From a virus, in IMG/VR virus record IMGVR_UViG_3300043449_002510, positions 60,149 to 124,148 of that record: DNA of 64,000 bases. One strand, written 5' to 3'. Under the pieces are notes generated by a model. That model did no database searches and had not been told where the DNA came from. It saw only the letters and a program-made list of their open reading frames with translations. The position numbers and the translations under genes were made by a program. Position 1 is the first letter of the stretch. Every line of letters starts with the position of its first letter. Shown here piece after piece: positions 4,246-64,000 of this stretch.

Positions 4246-7200
4246 ATGATTCAAAAATTGCAAGGAGTTAAAATAACGCCAAGGGGCAGTGATAATAGAT
4301 TTGTTAAACAAAACTGGCCTAATTCATACGCTTTTGGTGGGTGGATTTATAGCGCTAATGTTTCTATTGGTTATAATGATAATCCAACAGAAATTAGAAT
4401 GAGTATAGTTTTAGAAACCTCTACCTTTTCTCAATCTGCTGCGAAATTTGACATACTTGAATCTGATTTGCGTTGTGATGCCGGAAATGGAGGCTTAAAT
4501 AATGAAACATGGTTTGATATAGATCTAGAAGGTTTACTTTTTAAAAATTTTCTTCTTTATCAATACGATTTTTCAATAGAATCAAATCAAAAAATTTTAA
4601 ATATATTATTTAAAGATTATTCTATTCTTTTAGATAAAATTTATATCGGTCTTTATAAAAAACAAAGTTATAAAGAAAATTTTATAAAAAGTGCTAAATG
4701 CGAAATTAATTTACCAATCAGATGTCAAGATTGCGAATATAATGGATCTGCAATTATTGGAACTGGAAGTGCATATAGAGACATCGGCTTTGCTTCTTAC
4801 GCCGGAGTAAACGGGAAAATTTTTGATAATTTTAGTAATTTTTATTATGGAGCTGGAAATGTTTATGATGCTTGGAATCAATTAATTTCTAATACTGGAG
4901 TTGGCCCTGGAAAATTTGATTTAAATGGTGGTTATTTAATTATCGGTACAGAAAGCGCAACTGAAGAAAGGTGTAATTCTTCTCCAAACATAACTTATAG
5001 TTTCATAGAGCTGTTAGCTTCTTTAAGAAAAAATGGAATGAAATTCATAGGTTCTTTTCCGACTGGGTTAGTCGATTCTGATTTTATTTACAGAGCAAAT
5101 CATATAGGTTCATTAAGAGAAGTGTTACAAAATTGGTGTTCTGATTTGGGTTATACTTTTTATTGTAGTGGTAGAAGTTTTGTTGGAATTGACTTAAAAA
5201 ATCCGATAGATATTTCTAATATAGCAAATATTGCGGATCCAACAACTAATTTAGGTAAATATTTTGTTATAAATAATCGCAATACAGAAATAGGTGGTTC
5301 AGATACCAATAGTGCAATTTTATCTTTCAAATCTTCTTTTTCTTTGGATAATACTTTTAAACAATCTGTAATAGTAGAAAATAGTTATCCTACAACAGAG
5401 TCAAACACTTCAAAAACTGTCAAAAGATATGTGGGGATTACTCCATTACATCCAATATCTTTAAATCAATACGATAGAGATAATATTGCAGATTCAAATA
5501 TTTATGGAGAACCATTTATTAGGCCACGCTTTGATATAAAATGGTATGATAATCAATATGTAAATGGAGATTCTCTTTACGCAAATTTTGAAATGTTAGA
5601 TGGTAGAAGTTATTATGATGTTGATGCTGCTATAGCTTTATCAAATTATAATGATGTATTAAGAGATTTATTTGTAGCTCAAAGAGTTTTGTATAACGTT
5701 AGATCATTAAATGCTAGCGAGACAGATTCTTTAGCGAATCCGTATTGTTTAGCTAATTTTAATGCCTTGGGAATGTTTCCAATTTTAGAAATAGACGATA
5801 GTCAAATCAAAGCTGATATAATTACAGACTATTTTAGTAATGGAGAAAAAGATGACGTTTCTAATTTAAATATGGAATCCGAATATTTTCGAGTTTTTGT
5901 TGGTTTTTATAACGAAGACTTAAAAAACGAAATCGTTTCATGGGAAAAAAATGCGGCTAATTCTATGTATAAATATGGAGTAGTAACTAATGGGCCTTTG
6001 AGATATGCACCTTATGTTTCTCCAGATGTTTTAAGTGATGTTTCTCCAACTCTTGGTTTTTATGGTAAAGATGGATTGATATATAATAGAATAAAAAATA
6101 ACTTTACTCCTTCTGCTGATAGATATGCGAGTGTAAAATATACTCCATTCTTAGACGTTTTACTTTATGATGGTTTAGTCAGAAGTTCTAGCGAAGGAAT
6201 TTATCCTGAAAATAATCCAAATTATCCAGAGTTTGTTCCACCCGGTTATTCTATTTCTTCAGCAAGAATCCCAACTGGTTTATGGATTGCTGCATTGGAA
6301 AACGATTGGGGAACTTCAAAGCAAGAATTTGACAAAGCTCTTTCTTTTAATTTTGATGATGAATGCGCTTCTCAATATTCTTTGGATCAAACAGTATCTC
6401 AAATTGTTACTGCGAGCGATAGAAATGCCCAAGATTGGAATTTAAATTATTTCAAACCAATAGCTAGTCCAAATTTAGAAAAGATAAGTGATATCATTGA
6501 AAGCGATTTGTATAATTTTGATTCAGTCTTAGATAATGTAATAACAACTTATACTGATTTTCATTGGGTAGAAAAAAAACATTGTCAAAAATTACATGTA
6601 TTAATAATTCCAGATACAACAAGACACCCGAATTTAAATATTTCCTTTGCTAAAAATGGTATCAATAAAGTTAATGGGCAAGTTTTAGAACAATTTAAAC
6701 AAAAACTTTACAACAAAGACCAAGAAAAGAAAGTTACAAAAACTCCAAGTATTTGTTCTTTAGGAGTTTTAGAAGAGATGTGCAGAAATGTTTTAAGTGG
6801 AAATACCTCTTCAAATTTTAAAAACTTAGACGGTAGCAAGTTATATACTTATCAAGTTGGGTGCGCAATTTTTGAAGATAAAGATAATTACTTTTTAGAT
6901 GGCTTTGATAGCAACCTTTTGTATTCTCCTAATTCAAGAAGTTTAAGTATAACAATTAGTAAAAATCCGGGGGGGTACAACGAAATAGGCCATTCTGTTG
7001 ATGATAATGGAGATTATTATTATGAAGATTTAGATTTGGGGATATTAGAAATTAAAAGCAATTCGGCTACTTTAGATATTGTATATCCAATACAATCTAA
7101 TGCAGGTTCTGCAAATTATTATGGTATTTTATCAACTGAAGTTTCAACAGATATTCGTCTTCCAGCTTTTACTCAAGTATACGGAGAACCAGTTAATACA

Positions 7201-11082: not shown

Positions 11083-11110
11083 ATGATAGAACTTTTTCTA
11101 AAAAAGTCAA
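11083..11110 (-). promoter_or_regulatory. Sigma-70-like promoter, leaderless arrangement
   Basis: On the minus strand TTGACT, 16 bases, TATCAT. The -10 box ends only 6 bases before the ATG at 11076, so the transcript would start at or next to the start codon. No Shine-Dalgarno is present. Confidence 0.65.
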
Positions 11111-28559: not shown

Positions 28560-28587
28560 ATGATATCTAATCTTGATCAAAAGTCAA
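28560..28587 (-). promoter_or_regulatory. Sigma-70-like promoter of the polymerase operon
   Basis: Minus-strand TTGACT, 16 bases, TATCAT, ending 7 bases before the ATG at 28552. The site sits exactly where the divergent + gene could have an ATG (28560), which argues that the + gene starts further in, at 28623. Confidence 0.65.
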
Positions 28588-48999: not shown

Positions 49000-49027
49000 A
49001 TTATATCATTTTTCAAAAAAAAGTCAA
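49000..49027 (-). promoter_or_regulatory. Sigma-70-like promoter
   Basis: Minus-strand TTGACT, 16 bases, TATAAT, the closest match to consensus in the window. It leaves about a 30-base leader before the ATG at 48960, unlike the leaderless sites. Confidence 0.7.
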
Positions 49028-49034
49028 TGTGTAT

Positions 49035-49664
49035 TTATACAATATCGCAAATATTTGACATGTTTTTTATTTTATTTTTAATCAAAACCAACCCTTTTTT
49101 GTGAAGAGACATTACTGTTTGTGGCGAGCTGTTTATTTTTTTAGCAATTTTGTCCCATATCATTTTTTTGTCATCAAAGTATCTGTAGTAAAATATTTGT
49201 TTTATTCTTTCGTCTTTTAACTGCTCTAATATATCAACTACATATTCTCTATATTCTTTCAAGTTGTTTTGATTTTCAAAAAATAATTGTCTTGTTTGAT
49301 TTTCTTCTATTTTGTTTTTGATTTCCTCGTCATTTGCTGGAGCTATAAATTTTCTTTCATTAATAGAGTTTAAGCAGAGATATCTTGCGTAATTTCCAAT
49401 CCAAGAAGATAATTTTACATTCTTTTTAGGATCGAAAGTGTTTACGCAATGAAGTATAATTATATTTTTTTCATTAAAAATGTCTTGTATATAAACTCCC
49501 GAAGCGCTTAAAGCTGGAGAATATTTTTGACAAATTTTATAAAAAACATCTTGATACCTCCTGCAAATTTCTTCAAACGCCTCGCTTGAGGCTTTGTTCT
49601 TTACAGCTCTAACCAATTGAATATCTGTTTTAGCTTCTGATAAATTTTTCAATTTTTTCTGCAT
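49035..49664 (-). CDS. Sigma-70-family RNA polymerase sigma factor
   Basis: A 209-residue protein. AFEEICRRYQDVFYKICQKY resembles the region 2 start, and KKNVKLSSWIGNYARYLCLN region 2.3/2.4. The C-terminal region IKQIFYYRYFDDKKMIWDKIAKKINSSPQTVMSLHKKGL is a region 4 helix-turn-helix. Its size suits a group 3/4 (ECF-like or sporulation-type) factor. It overlaps the dNMP kinase by 35 bases. Confidence 0.8.
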   Translation of the reverse strand: MQKKLKNLSEAKTDIQLVRAVKNKASSEAFEEICRRYQDVFYKICQKYSPALSASGVYIQDIFNEKNIIILHCVNTFDPKKNVKLSSWIGNYARYLCLNSINERKFIAPANDEEIKNKIEENQTRQLFFENQNNLKEYREYVVDILEQLKDERIKQIFYYRYFDDKKMIWDKIAKKINSSPQTVMSLHKKGLVLIKNKIKNMSNICDIV

Positions 49665-50248: not shown

Positions 50249-51223
50249 TTATCTTTTTGGAGGAAGGCTGTTTTGCTTTATCTCAAAAACTCCATTGCCG
50301 ATAAAATCCGTTAATGTAGAATAACCGCTATAGCTAACAGCACTACTTAACCCACCCCATAATTCATCAACAAGTTTGGAAAGAGGCTTTAGTTCTTCTT
50401 CTATTTTATAAACTTTTCCCTCGCTGTGTTTTTTTATTCCTCCCCAGCGCTCTTGTTGTTTGTGGCTTGCACCACCCCAATATGTTCCGTCACCAGAAAG
50501 ATGCGTTTCAGCCTCAAAAGCTCTAGCAAAATACCCACCCATCATAACATAATCAGCCCCAGCTCCAAACGCTTTTGCCGCATAGTTCCCATTTTTTACC
50601 CCTCCGTCAGCAAGAATAAAATTATTTTTATAAATTTTATTGGATTTTTTTATACTATATATTTCCGTTAATTCAGTTATTTGCCCCCTGTTGTAACCTG
50701 TAGCATCAGAAGTAGCGCAAGCGCTGCCACCGGCAATGCCGACTCTTATAAAGGTTTCAATATCTGGGTTAATTAAATTATAAAAACCCTCACTAGTCAT
50801 AACGTTTCCAACCATTATTTTTTTAACGTCGCAAAGATTTTTTATAGAAGAAACGATGTTTTTTATACTAGGGATATAACCATTAGCTATATCGATTAAA
50901 ATATTTTTAATATTTTTAGAAGCCAGTTTTTTAACTCTTTCAAAGTCATTCGCGCCAACAGAAACAAAAACGTTATCTTTATTAATTAAAGAATTATAAA
51001 TCTGGATTTGTTTTTCAACATCACAAAATCTATGCAAACAAACGGTCAACCCTAATTTGTTTGCCTCAAATGCAAACTTCTCGCCTATAACAGCATCCAT
51101 TGGCGAAACAATTATTCTGTTTAATTCTTTAGGAACATCACTTCGTGATGAAATAGAAGAATGTTGAGCTATTAAATTAACGTCGTTATAATAAATGCTT
51201 TTTGTTTGAAGTATTGTAGGCAT
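50249..51223 (-). CDS. GMP reductase / IMP dehydrogenase family enzyme
   Basis: A 324-residue TIM barrel without CBS domains. The active-site loop RVGIAGGSACATSDATGYNRGQ carries the catalytic Cys (GSxC) and the TG-N-GQ tail more like GMP reductase than IMPDH. The phosphate loops FILADGGVKNGNYAAKAFGAGADYVMMGG are complete. It would interconvert purine nucleotides. The 500 bases upstream are the structured region at 51300-51670, which may be its leader. Confidence 0.85.
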   Translation of the reverse strand: MPTILQTKSIYYNDVNLIAQHSSISSRSDVPKELNRIIVSPMDAVIGEKFAFEANKLGLTVCLHRFCDVEKQIQIYNSLINKDNVFVSVGANDFERVKKLASKNIKNILIDIANGYIPSIKNIVSSIKNLCDVKKIMVGNVMTSEGFYNLINPDIETFIRVGIAGGSACATSDATGYNRGQITELTEIYSIKKSNKIYKNNFILADGGVKNGNYAAKAFGAGADYVMMGGYFARAFEAETHLSGDGTYWGGASHKQQERWGGIKKHSEGKVYKIEEELKPLSKLVDELWGGLSSAVSYSGYSTLTDFIGNGVFEIKQNSLPPKR

Positions 51224-51299
51224 ATTATTTGGACTTAAATTTCAAATAAACGTTCAACGGAGAAAAGGAAACATGATGTATTCTTTAGCAAATAAGAGA

Positions 51300-51671
51300 C
51301 AATATCCCCCACAAAGTAATAAATAATATTACTTCGTGGAGGATCTACATGAATGTCTTCTTTGAGGGCTTTATTTTTTTATGTCAAGCAGCCACCCTGA
51401 CGACATTTGAGAGCTTATAAAAATAAGCCAATAACTACCAAGTACTGGTGATAGGAAAGGTGAAAAACCCATTTACGTTATTGTCCCCTCTGGTTAAGAC
51501 ACAGCGGGTTACTTCTACGACTTCTCGTAGCCTTTTTTATTTTCCATCTCAAAATGGAGCTTTAACCCCTCTTGTTGCGTGTATCTAAAGCTTAAATACC
51601 TCACCCGCGATGGGGCAACTTGAGAAAACCTCACGTTTGACGTACGGCTTAAAAGTGGTTTGTCACTTTTT
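51300..51671. ncRNA. Unassigned structured RNA region (strand uncertain)
   Basis: This ORF-free part of a 500-base gap holds many helices (+ coordinates): 51309-51321 with 51327-51339 (13 bp, one mismatch); 51381-51385 with 51402-51406 enclosing CAG/CTG; 51413-51417 with 51424-51428; 51429-51435 with 51477-51483 enclosing hairpins 51437-51440/51446-51449 and a GGT-GAAAA-ACC loop; long-range 51504-51509 with 51603-51608; 51515-51520 with 51525-51530; 51543-51547 with 51554-51558; 51651-51657 with 51664-51670. A promoter at 51675-51704 points into it on the minus strand, but purine-rich loops (GATAGGAAAGG) favour a + strand RNA. No tRNA, tmRNA, RNase P or riboswitch core was recognised. Confidence 0.6.
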
Positions 51672-51674
51672 CAT

Positions 51675-51704
51675 ATAATAGATTCTTTTTGCTTAAAAAG
51701 TCAA
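51675..51704 (-). promoter_or_regulatory. Sigma-70-like promoter into the structured region
   Basis: Minus-strand TTGACT, 18 bases, TATTAT, followed by the structured region and then the GMP reductase-like gene. The same bases also contain TATAAT just before the + ATG at 51726. Confidence 0.45.
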
Positions 51705-51725
51705 GAGTAAATCTTATAATAAAAT

Positions 51726-52085
51726 ATGTTAAACATCATTTCTGTTTTTTGGATTATTTTATTTTTATATATTTATTTTGAAACTTCTGCAATTGTTGAA
51801 TGGTCAAAATTGTTAAAATTAAAATTTATCAAATATAAAGAATATGAGGAAAGCATTAAAATGTTTCCAGATCTTAAATACCCAGATTTTCTAGCAATGA
51901 GGTATGATAACTTTTTTATAAAATTAATAACATGCCAAGAGTGCCTATGCATCTGGATTAATATAATATTATTTTTATTTTTTAATTCTTTTTTGGGCGG
52001 TTGGTTATTTTTCAGTATAAATACAATAGCGTCTTTATTTGGAATAGCTTTATTTAAATTTTCAATGAAAAGATTTTATGAGTGA
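51726..52085 (+). CDS. Small membrane protein with CxxC
   Basis: A 119-residue protein with three hydrophobic segments: about residues 5-20, 76-95 and 97-112. The loop LITCQECLCIWINI (a CxxCxC cluster before a membrane helix) resembles DUF1360-like phage membrane proteins. TATAAT precedes the ATG by 6 bases with no Shine-Dalgarno. Role unknown. Confidence 0.65.
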   Translation: MLNIISVFWIILFLYIYFETSAIVEWSKLLKLKFIKYKEYEESIKMFPDLKYPDFLAMRYDNFFIKLITCQECLCIWINIILFLFFNSFLGGWLFFSINTIASLFGIALFKFSMKRFYE

Positions 52086-54689: not shown

Positions 54690-55062
54690 GGGGGTGCAAA
54701 GAATCGATTTATGAATAATCGAAATGGATTGCACGTAGAGGATAACAGTTGGCCTCTTTAAAACTTCTGTTAAAAACAAATGCTAAAGCATTGAAATCGC
54801 TTGCCTTTAAGCCAGTTATGGCCCGCAAGGCGGCTGTTGTAGCCTAATTTATCAGGTTACCCGTTTGTCTTTTGATTCTCGCTAAAAAGAACAAACGCCA
54901 TTTGCGAGAAAAACGCGGGTAACAAATGCGCGTAATCAGGTGTTAAAAACTCAATAAAGATGGAGTGATGGTTCCTATTTATTGTTTTATTAATTCCATC
55001 TAAACATGTAGACGTTCTTTTGGTTAGCATAAAGACGCGGCTCGCTGCCGCCACCTCCACCA
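54690..55062 (+). ncRNA. ssrA: Transfer-messenger RNA (tmRNA)
   Basis: A 373-base RNA. The 5' GGGGGTG pairs with 3' CACCTCC (55052-55058) followed by A and CCA, giving a tRNA-Ala-like acceptor with the G3-U70 pair read by AlaRS. A D-loop-like GAATCGATTT follows. Pseudoknot 1 is clear: AGAGG 54737-54741 with CCTCT 54753-54757, and TAACAG 54743-54748 with CTGTTA 54767-54772. Nine bases later GCT at 54782 is the likely resume codon. The tag is 21 codons, starting AKALKSLAFK and ending ARKAAVVA, stop at 54845. The T arm has a 4-bp stem and CTCGCTG loop. It rescues stalled ribosomes with host SmpB. Confidence 0.9.
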
Positions 55063-55965: not shown

Positions 55966-56484
55966 ATGACCGAAAAAGATTTTGTATTAAAAATTCCAGA
56001 AACATTAAATAAAACGAAAAACTTTTTAGCTTTTAAATTTAAATTGCATATTCATGACATAAATGATATCCTCCAAAATGCATCACTAAAAGCCTACAAA
56101 AATCTCCCTTTTTTTAGGGAAAAATGCTCTTTTGACACTTGGTTTATTTCGATTGCAAAAAACGAAGCAAAAACTTTTTTACTAAAAAGAAGCAAAACAA
56201 AAACAGTAGATGATTCGGAAGAGTTTTTAAAAGATTATTCGTTTAAATGGATAGAGCCAGAGGTAAATTCCAAAGAAGAACATGAAGACGTTTCTTTATT
56301 ATTGAATGAAATAATTTCAGATTTAAGTTCAAAACATAGAGTTGTTATTGATTTATTTCTAAAAGACCACTCCTCAAAAGAAATCTCTTCAATATTAAAC
56401 ATACCGATAAATTCTGTTAGAACAAGAATTTTCTACGCAAGAAAAAAGCTTAAAAATTTAATATTAACACATGGAAAACAATAA
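55966..56484 (+). CDS. ECF-type sigma factor
   Basis: A 172-residue protein. HDINDILQNASLKAYKNLPFFREKCSFDTWFISIAKNEAKTFL is a region 2 signature of ECF sigma factors (D-x2-Q...F...S..tWl..Ia.N). Region 4 is SKHRVVIDLFLKDHSSKEISSILNIPINSVRTRIFYARKKL, a typical helix-turn-helix. It would redirect host RNA polymerase to phage promoters. A TTGACT lies 35 bases before the ATG but no matching -10 was seen. Confidence 0.88.
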   Translation: MTEKDFVLKIPETLNKTKNFLAFKFKLHIHDINDILQNASLKAYKNLPFFREKCSFDTWFISIAKNEAKTFLLKRSKTKTVDDSEEFLKDYSFKWIEPEVNSKEEHEDVSLLLNEIISDLSSKHRVVIDLFLKDHSSKEISSILNIPINSVRTRIFYARKKLKNLILTHGKQ

Positions 56485-58427: not shown

Positions 58428-58640
58428 ATGCCATTACCAAAACCAAATAAAAAAGAAAAGGAACAAGAGTTTGTTTCTCGCTGTATGGAATCAGAAACCA
58501 TGAACAAAGAATTTCCAGACCAAAAACAAAGAGTAGCAGTTTGTTATTCACAATATAGAAAAAGAAAAGACACTGCAAAGGGTGGCGAAGAACCCAAGTG
58601 GGAAGATTGCGAAGGAGACAATACAATCACTTTACTTTAA
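58428..58640 (+). CDS. Small conserved phage protein (70 residues)
   Basis: A 70-residue protein. [20 protein letters not shown] and [21 protein letters not shown] form a pattern I recognise from many phage genomes, although its function is not settled. It starts 35 bases after a GTGTAT element and ends 2 bases before the pilin gene. Confidence 0.75.
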
Positions 58641-58642
58641 AG

Positions 58643-59329
58643 ATGTCAAAAAAGAATAAAGCATTCACATTAATAGAATTGTTGGTTGTTATAGCGATTA
58701 TAGCTATTTTAGCTGGGATGCTTTTACCAGCATTAAGTAAAGCAAAAGAAGCGGGTAAAAAAACTTATTGTTTAAACAACCTCAAACAATTAAGTTTGTC
58801 TGTAACAATGTATGCAGATGAACACGAATCCAAATATCCACCAAGAGGCGCTCCGGGCTCAAATTTAAACTTGTTGAGTAACACATGGCCAGCTACGCTC
58901 GGACCCTTTTACGAAAATAATAAAATACTTCTTTGTCCAAGTGATGTAACCGCCCCCTCAAACAATGGAAATAATAGCAATATCAGAAATTTAGAGGCTC
59001 CAAGAAGTTATATATTTAATGGGTTTAATGATTATTTCAAAGGAACTCCAGCTTTAGGCCAATCAATGCTTGAGACGGCAGTTCTTGAAACCAGTGATAC
59101 AATTTTATTTGGAGAAAAAGAGTCAGACTCTGGACATTGGTGGATGGATTGGTGGTTCGGAGATGATTACAAAGAATTAGATTTGAAAAGGCATAGTTTT
59201 GGGTCTAATTATGCTTTTGCGGATGGAAGCGCGAGATACGTCTCTTTTGGTAAAACATTTGCACCAATAAACATGTGGTTTGTTGATCCGATATACAGGA
59301 GTCAAGGAGAAAATCCAATTTTTCAATAA
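58643..59329 (+). CDS. Pseudopilin-like protein with H-x9-DG motif
   Basis: A 228-residue protein from the ATG at 58643. [26 protein letters not shown] is a type IV prepilin/pseudopilin leader, with the usual cleavage Gly replaced by Ala (A-F-T-L-I-E). It continues with the [15 protein letters not shown] pattern of DUF1559-type proteins and ends with H-x9-DG ([18 protein letters not shown]), typical of Verrucomicrobiota, Planctomycetota and Lentisphaerota. It probably needs a host prepilin peptidase. In a phage it is likely a moron of host origin, for example to alter pili. Confidence 0.88.
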
Positions 59330-59335
59330 ATTTAC

Positions 59336-59364
59336 TTGACTAAAATATAAGATTTTATTATCAT
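59336..59364 (+). promoter_or_regulatory. Sigma-70-like promoter, leaderless arrangement
   Basis: TTGACT, 17 bases, TATCAT; the -10 ends 7 bases before the ATG at 59372. It is the + strand counterpart of the early-gene promoters at 11083 and 28560. Confidence 0.65.
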
Positions 59365-63925: not shown

Positions 63926-64000
63926 GGGGGTATAGTGCTAATAGTAACACGCTAGATTTGCAATCTTGAGTCAGCGGGGCGGAACCGCTTACCTCCACCA
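63926..64000 (+). tRNA. tRNA-Ala(UGC) with non-standard D and T loops
   Basis: A full 75-base cloverleaf that ends on the last base of the window. The acceptor GGGGGTA pairs with TACCTCC including the G3-U70 pair, discriminator A and encoded CCA. The anticodon loop is TTTGCAA (anticodon TGC) and the 5-bp T stem AGCGG/CCGCT is intact. Unusual: the D loop TAATAGTA lacks the GG pair, the D stem has one C-A mismatch, the anticodon stem has a T-T mismatch, and the T loop is GGCGGAA instead of TTCGAAN. It shares acceptor identity with the tmRNA at 54690. Confidence 0.85.

Follow-up and report, generated by a model that had tools for sequence, protein, structure and literature searches.

A 124 kb phage contig, of which the 64,000 nucleotides analysed here (the window) are part, carries a structured non-coding RNA of about 375 nt on the minus strand. 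Comparison with its homologues establishes a conserved secondary structure, the strand and the orthologous position of this RNA and the conservation of promoter-like and terminator-like sequences at its ends, and the RNA is best read as a new family, carried by a few uncultivated phages and matching no known RNA family. The explanation that we favour, with a probability of about 0.65, is that of a stand-alone early phage RNA that is transcribed by the host polymerase, intrinsically terminated and acts in trans as a folded molecule, most likely by binding a protein or ribonucleoprotein.

Genomic context and homologues

The relatives were retrieved from IMG/VR by a search with NrdJ, a route that is independent of the RNA itself. 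In blastn comparisons, the gene-free stretch matched the sequence immediately upstream of p119 in L018, L020 and L021, with a short match in L042, and the locus of L023 was located via p119 and p165. The five IMG/VR contigs with an RNA homologue (L018, L020, L021, L023 and L042) represent four distinct sequences (L020 and L021 did not differ in their matches), two of which are mutually close; together with the window, the alignment holds five distinct sequences. In all homologues, the RNA occupies the orthologous position, upstream of and divergent from p119, p165 and nrdJ. Homology spans the whole RNA in the five aligned sequences, and identity to the window over the full length is 51-55%. 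Between L018 and L023, the 3' part is almost unchanged, whereas the 5' domain differs strongly but retains the first two hairpins. The stretch had been called gene-free from the window sequence, and this holds among the homologues: no conserved ORF is found in it, so a coding explanation fails.

The gene directly downstream of the RNA is guaC in the window, a dNMP kinase gene in L018 and L023, a sigma-like gene in L020 and an HNH-like gene in L042, and a sigma-like gene is found among the first three downstream genes in every homologue examined; the sigma and kinase genes of the window were identified by Pfam or PHROGs. The earlier note had considered a leader RNA of the GMP reductase gene. 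A guaC-specific leader was rejected, since the downstream genes of L018, L023, L020 and L042 are different ones and since the guaC locus of L002 (72% identical to guaC of the window) and other guaC loci are without the RNA.

Several other features of these loci were recorded. Two sigma-factor-like genes bracket the RNA locus in the window (49035-49664 and 55966-56484). The small HNH-like gene of L042 (4055-4543) looks zinc-binding by eye and has no Pfam match. In L023 (6001-8901), L024 and L042 (6001-8937), nrdJ is interrupted in frame by about 300 extra codons, at sites that differ between L023 and L042; these insertions are probably inteins. A window protein at 58598-59329 has, by eye, a prepilin-type N-terminal signal, which we take to be typical of Verrucomicrobiota or Planctomycetota and which hints at the host.

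Further members were sought by several routes. Model R1, applied to 71 phage records, detected no copy of the RNA outside the six known contigs, the window's included, and in scans of IMG/VR and GTDB genomes with a three-way junction pattern, the extra matches that were examined or tested with R1 proved to be chance, so that these scans, within the limits of their sensitivity, added no member. As handles, guaC led to relatives in which the RNA is absent, dNMP kinase gave no new RNA, and the p119 and p165 alignments gave no further RNA. In L025, a more distant relative, the gene-free sequence at the same place (4545-5094, about 500 bp) gave no convincing R1 match; an RNA of another kind, or a very diverged one, may lie there. 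A nucleotide search of isolated phages returned short chance matches only, and no description of this RNA was found in the literature, the coverage of which was incomplete.

Covarying structure and strand

The core alignment comprises 171 columns, and the structure model comprises 33 pairs. Pairing is kept in 95.1% of the cells, 14 of the 33 pairs are changed on both sides, and the covariation score is 0.479, compared with 0.246 in shuffles, all of these figures being subject to the caveat that the core structure was derived from the same few sequences that were used to score it. None of 500 shuffles reached the covariation score, the pairing figure or the both-side-change figure, and when the alignment was slid by 1-3 columns, pairing fell to 31-49%. 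The earlier note had read the stretch as a large structured RNA, some 370 nt long, to be checked by covariation in homologues, and the core bears it out. Judged from the alignment, the shape of the RNA is kept while its sequence diverges.

Table 1. Positions of the RNA, its elements and neighbouring features in the window
Feature	Position	Strand	Basis or remark
Gene-free stretch	51224-51725		flanked by guaC and p119
guaC (GMP reductase)	50249-51223	minus	directly below the RNA in the window
p119, small gene	51726-52085	plus	followed by p165, then nrdJ
Structured non-coding RNA, about 375 nt	51290-51668	minus	homologue alignment, core covariation; both ends predicted
Promoter-like site TTGACT-N18-TATTAT	51675-51704	minus	points into the RNA
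5' hairpin Ha	51651-51670	minus	compensatory changes, hand alignment, all five sequences
Hairpin Hb (AAGCC...GGUUU)	51626-51650	minus	compensatory changes, hand alignment, all five sequences
Long-range helix, 5' side GCGGGU	51603-51608	minus	GCGG in all five sequences; without covariation
Hairpin H1	51543-51558	minus	100% of cells paired; both-side changes in 3/5 pairs
Hairpin H2	51511-51533	minus	91% of cells paired; both-side changes in 2/9 pairs
Long-range helix, 3' side ACCCGC	51504-51509	minus	CCCG in all five sequences; without covariation
Three-way junction: closing helix and two hairpins	about 51430-51482	minus	covaries
Hairpin H6	51412-51429	minus	95% of cells paired; both-side changes in 3/4 pairs
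Hairpin H7, conserved UGGCU loop	51382-51405	minus	hand alignment UGUC/GACA, GUCC/GGAC, UUCG/CGAG; all five sequences
Conserved loop sequence, GCCCUYRAAGAA-like	51357-51372	minus	homologue alignment
Terminator-like hairpin, 18 pairs	51304-51344	minus	3' end of the RNA
Recurrent TTGACT-N16-18-TATNAT sites	11083-11110, 28560-28587, 49000-49027, 51675-51704, 59336-59364
tmRNA (RF00023, 84.6 bits)	54690-55062	plus	after nrdJ

The three-way junction, which had been placed at 51429-51483 from the window alone, is the most conserved part of the RNA (GCGUAAAUGAG...AUCACC...GGUAG), and its closing helix is paired in 100% of the cells, with both-side changes in four of six pairs. The helices outside the core, in the 5' and 3' domains, were counted by hand because the MAFFT alignments there were out of register. 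By this hand alignment, the helix that flanks the GCCCUYRAAGAA-like loop (H8) covaries in the other homologues and is not clear in the window. Two further elements of the earlier note stand in part. The halves of its long-range GCGGGT/ACCCGC helix are present in all five sequences, with GCGG and CCCG 96-116 nt apart; both are invariant, so the helix is compatible with the alignment, not proven by it. There is indeed a hairpin where a 13-bp end hairpin was described, and it is really the 18-pair terminator-like stem.

With regard to strand, the core helix cells, read on the minus strand, include 16 G-U pairs and no A-C mismatches. On the other strand these 16 cells would be A-C mismatches, which rules out the plus-strand RNA that the earlier note had held open; on the pair counts of the alignment, the RNA is of the minus strand only. 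A plus-strand string resembling a conserved part of 23S rRNA, GGAAAGGTGAAAA, is present as described, lies opposite an unconserved hairpin loop as its complement and was matched by no rRNA model, so a 23S rRNA fragment was rejected. Both strands of the window fold better than shuffles (z of -4.6 for minus and -3.1 for plus). Removal of the terminator hairpin leaves a minus-strand z of -2.5 for the window and of -2.4 to +0.6 for the homologues, and the remaining folding energy is unremarkable in three of the five sequences. Since the energy signal comes largely from the terminator, covariation rather than energy was taken as the evidence for the structure.

Promoter-like and terminator-like ends

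A TTGACT promoter pointing into the RNA on the minus strand had been noted from the window, and the promoter-like site recurs across the relatives: TTGAC is present at this place in all homologues, and the site scores 10-12 out of 12 in L018, L023 and L042. The strict scan missed the -10 element of L020, where TTGACA-N18-TAAGTT is seen by eye. In the window, TTGACT-N16-18-TATNAT is found at five sites, compared with 0.36 expected, and four of the five lie just upstream of protein genes; this excess and placement suggest that the motif is probably the phage's own promoter class. At the other end, every homologue has a counterpart hairpin with a T-rich tail in the equivalent position, separating the RNA from the following gene, and the scan rule scored the terminators of the window and L020 only, missing the tails of L018, L023 and L042. 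Judged by these motifs, the RNA appears to have conserved promoter and terminator sequences of its own, as an independent non-coding RNA gene would. In addition, a TTGAA-N18-20-TCYAA motif is seen by eye just before the first downstream gene in all homologues.

Known RNA families and alternative explanations

At gathering score, none of the 4227 families of Rfam 15, a set that includes ROOL, GOLLD, OLE, 6S, RNase P, SRP, tmRNA, group I and II introns and riboswitches, matched the RNA in the window or its homologues, and at permissive thresholds, applied to the window and three homologues, only sub-threshold chance matches appeared. This agrees with the earlier view that the RNA belongs to no known class. 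Both GOLLD and ROOL, which are known from phages or prophages, are longer than the window RNA. Like the latter, GOLLD, ROOL and OLE are large, multi-helix, non-coding RNAs of the ornate type (PMC12286853); their models gave no Rfam match to the window RNA or its homologues. The tmRNA located 3 kb away (373 nt) has a similar length, neighbourhood and conservation in the clade (it is conserved in L018, L020, L021, L023, L025 and L042), but it is a separate plus-strand gene, and the RNA studied here has no match to RF00023. ARAGORN does not report the window copy of the tmRNA, nor does it report a tRNA match at 63926-63997 (RF00005, 40.4 bits).

The strongest rival, because one of the first three downstream genes is sigma-like in each homologue examined, is a riboswitch-like or attenuator-like 5' leader, long and bearing a terminator, that would control the downstream minus-strand operon of dNMP kinase, sigma-like factor and neighbours. 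The RNA is always upstream of and co-directional with that operon, and a terminator-like hairpin, recognized from sequence only, stands immediately before the first gene, as in an attenuator. Known leaders of these kinds are likewise folded RNAs that precede genes and finish with a terminator-like hairpin; however, the first downstream gene differs in nearly every phage, known classes are unmatched, and the size of the structure far exceeds that of typical aptamers. In addition, a conserved alternative pairing that would open the 18-pair hairpin was not seen by eye in the alignment, and the TTGAA-N18-20-TCYAA motif could be a separate promoter of the first gene, although as a promoter class it is not enriched in the window. 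On balance, we regard a leader as unlikely. A replication primer or origin RNA is a good deal less probable. Like ColE1 RNA II, the RNA is structured and lies where transcription diverges; the cumulative GC skew of the window genome turns upward at the RNA, and the skew minimum falls at the RNA in two relatives, over the stretches read. In this genome, however, GC skew tracks gene direction, so the change of gene direction would by itself produce such a turn, and the skew argument is confounded.

It is more improbable still that the RNA is what remains of a mobile element or of an intron (group I or II, or an IscB-type guide RNA). The HNH-like gene adjoining the RNA in L042 and the probable inteins of nrdJ in relatives would fit such an origin, but the HNH-like gene occurs in one phage only, the orthologous position is fixed, the RNA has promoter-like and terminator-like ends of its own, and the Rfam intron, HEARO and ribozyme models are unmatched even at E values up to 5-10. 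As for chance hairpins or a DNA element with no RNA at all, to which the modest folding energy without the terminator would be suited, almost no weight is left: covariation exceeds that of shuffles and slides, and the retained G-U pairs, for which a DNA cruciform would have no preference, indicate constraint on RNA and not on DNA. Provided that the alignment is correct, the pair counts already refute this last reading.

An independent trans-acting RNA is favoured because antisense targets at phage gene starts did not exceed shuffles and because the skew follows gene direction; the null antisense result argues weakly against an antisense regulator. In this explanation, host RNA polymerase would transcribe the RNA from the sigma-70-type promoter early in infection, and the intrinsic terminator would end the minus-strand transcript. 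The folded RNA would then act in trans, and we infer that its partner is most likely a protein or ribonucleoprotein of the phage or the host, and not phage messages bound by base-pairing. More tentatively, and with considerable doubt, it may be the founding member of a new class of large phage RNAs with an activity of its own in host takeover (as a protein-binding machine, ribozyme or replication primer), the 5' domains of which diverge faster than the remainder, as between L023 and L018.

To our knowledge, large structured phage RNAs are few, and most are without a known function. Because covariation supports its structure, its ends are defined and a handful of homologues are listed, this RNA lends itself directly to synthesis, probing and expression. 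Action in trans would make it a new phage RNA family; a leader role would make it a control element of unusual size before a phage sigma-factor operon.
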